Below, in pieces: positions 61,634-64,000 of a DNA stretch of 64,000 nucleotides (its first letter is position 1; every line of letters begins with the position of its first letter). The notes beneath the pieces are model-generated. The model saw nothing but the letters and a program-made list of their open reading frames with translations, was not told the DNA's origin and did no database searches. The DNA is from Tetraselmis striata (Eukaryota > Chlorophyta > Chlorodendrophyceae > Chlorodendrales > Chlorodendraceae): NCBI GenBank assembly GCA_006384855.1, contig VCJN01000857.1, positions 1-64,000 of the forward strand, in the 5' to 3' direction. Both the position numbers and the translations under genes were made by a program.

Positions 61634-62041
61634 AACATTACTGTTGTATAATCGTGTGCTTTGTGCTCTCAATGCTGCCCTCATGCCTTGATATGCACAC
61701 CTCTGCCCCCTACACAATATATGGACGATTGCAGCACTTTTCCCATGGACACTGATGTTGATAGTACTTTACACATTACATAAGCCAGCTACAAAACTTA
61801 TGGAGGGGGCGGGTCAGATTATTAGGGGGGGGTACCAAAACATACTAACAGTTCTTACTGGCCTTAAAAATCATGATGGCCCGACATGATGCGATCATTG
61901 CGCGGCAGCGGCGAATGCGACCATGCGAGGACGACGTGCGAGGGACATGAGCTGGCTTCATTTTTCGCATGCATTCGCTAGTAGCGACATCGTGGGTACA
62001 TAGTACTATATATGTTAAGACCCACGTACGAATTTGCCATG

Positions 62042-62669
62042 CATGTGTACACACAGGTCGCCTTGTGTATACACAGGTCATCAATTTGACCTGTGTATAC
62101 ACATGTCATACTTTTAATTGACATGTGTACACACATGTCATTATCTTGCCTGTGTATACACAGGTCGATACCGTAATGACATGTGTGTACACGGGTCATG
62201 TTTACTTTGACCCGTGTACACACACGTCACTTTTTATGACCCGTGTACAAACATGTCAAAGTGATCATGACCCGTGTACACACAGGTCATTACGGTATCG
62301 ACCTATGTATACACGGGTCACAAATGATACCTAAAGCCCGACACCTTGTTTGCACATGGGGCATCTGTGAAATGGTCTGGGTGAAAACATGTACTTGGGT
62401 CATATGTCATATATATGACATGTGTACAAAGAAGGCAGCGATGTTCGCACTTGGGTCATTTTCCATGACATGTGTGTACATAGGGCGATTTCAAGTGACT
62501 TGTGTATACATAGGTCATGGTAAAAATGACATGTGTGTACACAGGTCAATGCAAGTGACCTGTGTGTACATAGGGCATACAAGGTAATGCCCTGTGTATA
62601 CACAGGGCACCTAAATGCCTTGTGTATACACAGGGCGTTTTGACCATATGACCTGTGTATACACATGGC
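62042..62669. repeat. array of ~18 imperfect 20-bp palindromes with ~30-bp period
   Basis: Consensus GACCTGTGTATACACAGGTC, itself a perfect palindrome. Units start near 62042, 62060, 62088, 62120, 62148, 62178, 62209, 62238, 62269 and 62300, then after a degenerate gap at 62417, 62467, 62497, 62528, 62557, 62589, 62617 and 62650. Spacers are about 8-12 bp and differ. The spacer plus borders GGTCGATACCGTAATGAC (62,163-62,180) is the exact inverse of 62,286-62,303, so the left block also folds around about 62,233. No gene covers it. Confidence 0.9.
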
Positions 62670-64000
62670 ATTTTCGTACCTGGGTCTTCACATATACTTT
62701 TTTTTTCAGTCGCTAATAGCGCTAATAGTCGCATCGATGACTACCCGTACATCGTCAGCGCGACATCATCAGCATCGCGCCATAGTCGCTAATCGTAAGG
62801 GCGATGACAGCACGTGCATCATCAGCAGCTTGCTGCGGAAAGTATCTCCAGTATCCCAGTAGCGACTACCTGTACAGTACCGTACGAGCAATATATAATC
62901 GCTGTGTTTTGACGAATTGCGCGCATTTGAAAGTGAAATTATTGCGTTTAGTTGTTATTTATTCCTGATTCTTCTCAATTTTGCAACGGAGCGGGTATCA
63001 AATCTCAGTATATTACTACAGTCCGCAAATAATACAAGGGACACTCTGTGCGTACCCGTACTCGCATGCCATTATTACTGCCACGCGGCGGAGGCCGCGC
63101 AAATTGGGGCGGTAGGATGTCGGTAGTGGGATAGCGAGAAGATGCCATGAGTTTCAAAACCAGGGTTGTAGTGCTTAACTTACCAGTAGTTAAGCTCAGT
63201 GGTCACAGCGGTTCCTCCGTTCCTGGGGGCAGGTAATCCTGAAGACCGTGCGGGAGTGATACATAGACGTAGTGAACCGGGGGCGGCGGGGGGGGTGGGG
63301 TCGCTAATAGTAGTCGATTAGGTAGTAGCGTCGATCAGGTAGTCGATGATTACACAGCAGTGCGAGTCTCGTTTGCCAACGGAGCGTGTGACTTGATTAC
63401 AAGGCACCCGCCACACCTAACGAGTAGGGTGGGATGAATTGGGTGCGAGAAGCGCTTGTCCCTCGTCCCGCCCTCCCCCACCGCCTTGTCCGCTTCAAGC
63501 GAGAGCCCGCCCGCCGCGACCGGTGTTGAGACCGACAACAACACCCATGTATTCCATCATCGCCTTGAGATGGTGCGACGCAGTCTTGATAAGAAGTGGT
63601 CACATACCCAAAAGAAAAAGACATAAATGTTGGCAATCAAGGCACAATCTTATGACAGCAACAACGCAGTCACGACGTAGTCCCATTTCCGTGGTTTATT
63701 TAAATATTACGCCTGAACCAGATATGTTACGTGGTTAGTTACAGCAGAAGTACGGGCCTTAACTCAGTTAAGTTCTGACGGAACTTAATTCCGCGTAATG
63801 TATTCCTGCCAAAACTCAACTCTGGTCGAGGCAACCAAGCCCAACCCCGGCTTCAACACGCTCTCCGCATATCGTTGCCTCCTTGTACCTGGTAAGGGGT
63901 TTCTATGGCACATTTTGCTTGTCTAATAAAATGCTATTCGAAGAGCGGCTTGCAAACTCCACCACGTACTCCCGTCCCTCATCGTCCTCCTGCGCCAGCA
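62670..64000. other. right end of the window, no gene seen
   Basis: Contains several GTCGCTAATAG/TAGCGACTA words (62,700-62,870 and 63,300-63,350) and a short G-rich run near 63,280. Frames of up to 99 codons are present but without domains. A gene may begin past the right edge. Confidence 0.35.

Follow-up and report, generated by a model that had tools for sequence, protein, structure and literature searches.

The array of short palindromes at positions 62,042 to 62,669 of a 64,000-nt stretch of the green alga Tetraselmis striata (contig VCJN01000857.1, assembly GCA_006384855.1; hereafter the window) is not free-standing but forms the body of a small, gene-less transposon copy. This copy is probably a miniature inverted-repeat transposable element (MITE)-like internal-deletion derivative of a Ginger2-type (integrase-type) cut-and-paste DNA transposon, whose palindromes would be sites for transposase dimers. 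Like a MITE, it is short (680 bp), carries terminal inverted repeats (TIRs) and a target site duplication (TSD), shares its ends with three full-length relatives (L006–L008), and lacks their internal coding region. Its parts, in window coordinates, are:

62009..62012: left TSD, TATA; the 4-bp length is fixed by the pairs TATG/TATG, TATC/TATC and CAAT/CAAT in copies L011, L019 and L033
62013..62692, + strand: whole non-autonomous element, 680 bp, with boundaries common to other copies, TIRs and TSD
62013..62035, + strand: left TIR, TGTTAAGACCCACGTACGAATTT, with a degenerate half-site at +7 inside it
62040..62319: left array of 10 palindromic units found by half-site scoring, starting at 62040, 62060, 62088, 62120, 62147, 62178, 62209, 62238, 62269 and 62300
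62149..62317: inverted duplication within the left array, arms 62149-62229 and 62237-62317
62300..62329: internal-deletion junction, matching the left and the right array of full-length L006
62417..62669: right array of 8 palindromic units found by half-site scoring, starting at 62417, 62467, 62497, 62528, 62557, 62589, 62617 and 62650
62670..62692, − strand: right TIR
62693..62696: right TSD, TATA

The initial annotation had described about 18 near-palindromic 20-bp units, and half-site scoring recovers 18 at 62040-62669, compared with 0–1 per sequence in 20 base shuffles; when at most three mismatches to the consensus are allowed, 14 matches are found in the window and 0 in 100 shuffles. The proposed spacing of 28–33 bp describes most steps (27–33 bp), but steps of 20, 50 and 117 bp occur too. 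Spacers had also been described as mirrored across 62,233, and the two arms there are 81 nt long, 85% complementary and 7 nt apart, owing to the inverted duplication within the left array. A reverse-strand self-match corresponding to this duplication (~81 bp) is present in 40 of 40 scored family A places in the genome.

The inverted ends of the window element, TGTTAAGACCCA...TGGGTCTTCACA, form ~22-bp repeats with TATA on both sides, and three full-length family A relatives, L006 (3628 bp), L007 (3639 bp) and L008 (4741 bp), share these ends and are likewise flanked by TATA. The degenerate half-site at +7 reads GACCCATGT in L006 and L008. Relative to these elements, the window copy consists of ~310 bp of the left end joined to ~390 bp of the right end, and its matches to L006 (3263-3578 and 6502-6898) overlap by 30 bp at 62300-62329. 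Because this overlap matches a unit of both ends, the deletion probably ran between two array units.

Searching the 224-Mb genome with window positions 61900-62900 gave at least 140 first-look candidates, 40 of which were scored, namely the window and 39 others at 84–94% identity; genome copy counts are thus lower bounds. The main matches extend at most about 14 bases past the element, and some begin inside it, the exception being C2786, which matches at 94% over the whole query, flanks included, and is filled at the same TATA, and is hence an allele or duplicate of the window copy. A 14-bp core, CTGTGTATACACAG, occurs exactly 225 times genome-wide, with 0 occurrences of a backward control. 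The contrast drawn earlier with a common satellite therefore stands only in part: the copies are dispersed rather than tandem, but the sequence is common, spacers included, and the spacers are conserved between family copies.

Target duplications were measured in 26 two-ended family A copies, representing ~21 independent insertion sites, since by their flanks at least five of the copies share the insertion site of another (window/L025, L027/L043, L029/L030 and L037/L040/L041); this set omits L022 (850 bp), L010 (413 bp), the 3.6–4.7 kb copies L006–L009, and eight one-ended or endless copies (L012, L013, L015, L016, L020, L023, L028, L032). Sixteen of the 26 have identical 4-bp TSDs, and in 9 of the remaining 10 the two flanks are a single base apart. 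The TATG, TATC and CAAT pairs indicate a true duplication rather than a TATA fixed within the element. An RTATAY target is evident, with TATA as left TSD in 17 copies, R before it in 23 and Y after the right TSD in 23. No empty site was found for the window copy, the only other match, C2786, being filled at the same site. For L021 we found diverged relatives of the joined flanks at C1706 (69%, across the junction) and C2333 (76%), and for L019 two separate pieces at C1013 (72% and 78%), none of which we count as proof.

The 26 copies diverge from their majority sequence by 2.5–6.4% (window copy 4.3%), and fixed unit positions are not conserved over spacers among them (0.955 vs 0.950), with triplets 4-6 of the units more variable (0.835). 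As unit letters are no better kept than spacers, there is no sign of selection on inserted copies, and the window copy has no demonstrated role at its present site. Separately, family A copies show CCTG (or CAGG) changed to CATG by C-to-A (G-to-T) exchange at 148 of 744 site-copies (20%), compared with 197 other transversions in ~16,100. In the coding part of full-length pairs the same exchange is seen at 5 of 91 sites (L006-L013), 7 of 82 (L008-L013) and 0 of 93 (L006-L007), a hint of excess; CCTG may be a C-to-A mutation hotspot of this genome.

Integrase-type DNA transposons are cut-and-paste relatives of the integrases of long terminal repeat (LTR) retroelements. Between their arrays, the full-length elements have exon-like frames encoding a CxxC finger, an integrase core (motifs GQVDLIDYQS, LQAD.GREF and HSPSNGG.ER), a PHD-like cysteine-rich motif and a middle domain, as well as a CXC-like cluster; the labels PHD-like and CXC-like come from cysteine spacing and not from profile matches. 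When exons were joined, Pfam rve (PF00665) was recognised in three of four members (family B twice, family C once; best E 4.6e-5), and the fourth, from family A, is 60% identical to the B and C members and conserves D, D, E and the CxxC. The H2C2 finger (H..H and CxxC) was seen by eye in exon translations, with no profile match; the DDE integrase core was matched by profile in the B and C members. Single-protein searches gave only matches below cut-off in Pfam (among them rve_3, E 0.036) and none in the PDB, where a profile search returned one weak integrase match (E 0.29); among viral relatives, 66 pattern matches yielded none confirmed.

Several further observations concern these coding regions. 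At positions 6551-7228 of L008 a coding sequence (SPAASEPMAEDAAAPPTDGLAAELA) is repeated about four times, and no such repeat was seen in L006. Many short open CXC-like matches (query residues ~57–125, 64–71% identity, no stops) occur away from any integrase match, for example at C2053, C443, C389 and C1179, and are possibly a separate gene family. Many rve matches genome-wide have identical scores and open frames of 1771, 2147 and 2953–2970 codons, which suggests recently active LTR-type retroelements. The genome also gives 63 matches to the chlorophyll a/b-binding family; a protein read from one of them (L072) scored highest, by summed score, against the fused antenna chains of 9vfj, followed by single-domain chains such as 9is4_Y and 6kac_Y (6kac being a green-alga structure), in keeping with a photosynthetic host of the green lineage.

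By termini, duplication length, target and integrase-type transposase, the element as read from its sequence appears to match Ginger2/Tdd. Sections of the Ginger paper (PMC2836005) describe for Ginger2 the same TGTNR termini, 4-bp TSD, RTATAY target and a finger plus DDE integrase-type transposase, as well as a small non-autonomous relative, Ginger2-1N1_NV (252 bp). In families A, B, C and D the termini usually read TGTTA or TGTTG, with deviations in single copies: TGTTC (L042, L012, L020), TGTTT (L048), TTTTA (L039), CGTTC (L009) and TATTA (L068). The CCGG or CCGT duplication of Ginger1 was not seen, the TSDs of the 26 copies being TATA-like.

Protein searches of the genome gave 87 matches for the integrase exon (122 candidates scored) and, with 150 of 263 candidates scored, at least 150 for the CXC exon; three sister families were defined. 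Family B (L045, 4797 bp) and family C (L047, 5144 bp) are each flanked by TATA at both ends, and family D is represented by termini with one flank each in L049, L067, L068, L069 and L070. Eighteen ends were fetched, of which four without a terminus (L052, L055, L064, L065) were not used and a fifth, L059, had a terminus but was left out of the unit-position scan; of the six D stretches, L066 lacked a terminus, and L071, whose TIR contains an insertion, was not used. The left ends of B and C rest on one copy each, the left end of D on three and its right end on two. The palindromes are GACCTGTGTnnACACAGGTC in A, G..CCATGTnnACATGG..C in B, GACACATGTnnACATGTGTC in C and GACTTGTTTGCAAACAAGTC in D; the last occurs with at most two mismatches in 51 places, several of which flank integrase matches on both sides (C849, C1587, C1798).

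The four palindromes occupy one 20-bp frame, and their half-sites (GACCTGTGT, G..CCATGT, GACACATGT and GACTTGTTT) differ symmetrically. The consensus arms are complementary at 9 of 9 positions in A, C and D and at 8 of 9 in B. Of 729 pooled arm cells 538 are complementary, against 442.4 ± 10.8 when halves were dealt over all families (z 8.8), a pooled test that restates that four (nearly) symmetric consensuses differ; symmetry and spacing were compared with one copy per family end. Symmetric change between families fits one dimer subunit per half-site rather than base-paired hairpins.

The positions of the units are shared between families as well. Unit starts, counted from the element end, are:

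A 5′ end (L006): 7 24 44 72 103 130 161 192 221 252 283 312 344
D 5′ end (L069): 7 24 44 72 103 132 163 194 223 253 286 314 345
C 3′ end (L047): 7 24 44 71 102 129 160 (180) 220 251 282
B both ends (L045): 7 24 44 71 91/92 122/123 149/150
A 3′ end (L006, 3267-6894): 7 24 55 83 115 144 175 205

The A 3′ ladder equals the 5′ ladder moved inward by 11–14 bp after the first full unit, and the D 3′ end (24 55 84 114) resembles it. Steps of 20, 28, 31, 27, 31, 31, 29, 31 and 31 bp in A correspond to 20, 28, 31, 29, 31, 31, 29, 30 and 33 bp in D (permutation P 0.0016), and the same test gives P 0.0007 for A vs C and P 0.0015 for D vs C. Over ~260 bp the cumulative offset among the ends selected for A, C and D is at most 4 bp. 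These ends are alike in the TIR (16–18 of 23) and at fixed unit positions (0.62–0.78), and their spacers are no more alike when paired than when mispaired (0.42/0.43 for A-D, 0.32/0.36 for A-C, 0.38/0.38 for D-C), so that spacing was kept while letters were lost. Motif-free palindrome profiles, which we replaced by the motif-based unit scan, correlate best at zero shift in 6 of 28 end pairs and within one base in 2 more; A's two ends match at shift 11 (r 0.61), and the rest at other shifts. The earlier suggestion of phasing close to whole DNA turns was not borne out at 10.5 bp per turn, where the phase vector is weak (R 0.04–0.50; six ends with unit positions listed by hand). On the same hand-listed positions, a period of ~10.0 bp beats ±5 bp jitter in five of six ends (P 0.001–0.021), the right end of C giving P 0.26.

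The initial annotation had offered a transposon end and a binding array for a dimeric protein as separate options, and the two combine: the TSD and TIRs identify a transposon, and symmetry between families together with conserved spacing argues for dimer sites. The palindromes are most likely binding sites for dimers of the element's own transposase, set in a fixed geometry. Each 20-bp palindrome would bind one dimer, perhaps through the C-terminal cysteine-rich CXC-like region, and ~7–13 dimers held at fixed distances on each end would assemble the complex responsible for end recognition, pairing and cleavage. With steps near multiples of 10 bp (20, ~30, 50, 60), the ladder could seat many dimers along a single end, and the half-site that lies within the TIR at +7 would lead on to the cleavage point. 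The specificity of the transposase would have diverged together with its sites, and the array would serve transposition.

A number of observations weigh against this interpretation. Half-site variation within families is independent (P 0.36 in A, 0.97 in B, 0.61 in C, 0.25 in D), and four families amount to few independent events. Units of family B are the least symmetric, and extra 20-bp steps are inserted there; the 5′ end of C leaves the ladder after +44 (24 44 87 114 146), C has the layout of the A 5′ end at its own 3′ end, and one of its units there, near +191, could not be recognised and was positioned manually between 160 and 220, a sum of 60 that equals A's. Indel shifts or lost units affect L048, L051, L054, L057, L060, L061, L063, L068 and L070. 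As for the protein, no CXC or PHD model of Pfam was matched by the element proteins, the joined-exon member of family A had rve_3 as its sole match (with an E of 0.15 that falls short of the curated cut-off), and the predicted fold of the middle and CXC region was uninformative (mean pLDDT 36.6).

Among other explanations, the best survivor, though an unlikely one, is that the arrays arose by tandem duplication and were homogenised through short gene-conversion events: a palindrome can convert in either orientation, which would yield symmetric consensuses without co-evolution of a protein, with the spacing simply inherited. Within a family the units are indeed alike and the spacers are not, part of the left array of family A is duplicated in inverted orientation, the families share ancestry, and some copies carry indels. 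Yet spacers are saturated between families, where neutral drift should have added indels and the offset nevertheless stays within 4 bp. Rather less likely still, the arrays could be sites of a host regulator or silencer borrowed by the element, as other elements are known to carry host-factor sites. Here, however, the motif changes symmetrically with the element family within one genome, which a single host factor would not drive, and we infer for this reason that the binding protein is encoded by the element and not by the host. We consider it very improbable that the palindromes act as hairpins, either DNA cruciforms or transcript stem-loops, that feed small RNAs or fold the ends. Each unit could self-fold on one strand, but such folding predicts paired changes within units, and the earlier claim that changes are symmetric within the array did not hold: in the window 136 of 180 arm cells are complementary, where dealing the right halves among units gives an expectation of 137.9 (P=0.77; a looser threshold, admitting 20 units, was used), and in the 26 copies the left triplet agrees with the right one for 114 of 409 unit-copies against 112.8 expected. 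This absence of within-unit covariation led us to reject the hairpin or RNA reading. That the array is instead a satellite, a centromere or a replication element with no link to transposition, as phased repeats might suggest in isolation, has next to no probability and was rejected on account of dispersed copies on many contigs with TIRs and TSDs; nothing supporting the suggested replication or centromere-like role was found, no test having been aimed at either.

Multiple transposase sites are already known in other transposons, as sections of the papers cited below describe. The piggyBac transposase is unrelated, and its TTAA duplication is seen in 0 of the 26 copies. In the sections concerned, the left end of piggyBat likewise has several sites, but piggyBac/piggyBat elements use a TTAA target and have at most three palindromes on one end, compared with ~7–13 here (PMC11707139). 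The left end of IS1535, of the IS607 family, has subterminal motifs in helical phase to which several transposase dimers bind, forming a filament, although that system, as excerpted, involves a bacterial serine recombinase, four short direct repeats and no TSD (PMC6188088). Hermes, a hAT element, resembles ours in having many sites for transposase zinc fingers per end, with one quasi-palindromic pair at the tip, and differs in its short AAGT motifs (PMC10368747, in part); hAT subterminal repeats are said in passages of PMC6188088 to vary in spacing and orientation. Galileo has multiple transposase (THAP) sites in long repetitive TIRs, but these are three and far apart, and the string palindrom- is absent from the main text (PMC3688188). 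In contrast to Ginger2/Tdd as described in sections of PMC2836005, the elements here carry ~300-bp palindrome ladders at their ends and an added cysteine-rich C-terminal region; its main text contains neither palindrom- nor subterminal. Palindrome ladders on Ginger-type elements did not appear in titles or abstract openings among the matches listed, a scope outside which subscription journals and Repbase fall, so that their absence from the literature is not proven.

How integrase-type DNA transposons choose their ends has, to our knowledge, been little studied. We tentatively propose, as a possibility rather than an expectation, that the ends are fixed-geometry templates for an ordered filament of ~7–13 transposase dimers per end, with selection keeping the distances almost unchanged while the letters of sites and spacers turn over. 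Private, co-evolved half-sites (triplet 4-6 and, in D, also the TGT core) might let the families coexist without cross-mobilising, and the four families might represent a natural specificity code. Four families with similar ladders and four palindromes in one genome offer a test of how the DNA specificity of a transposase changes, and would also allow a test of whether the synaptic complex reads spacing rather than sequence.
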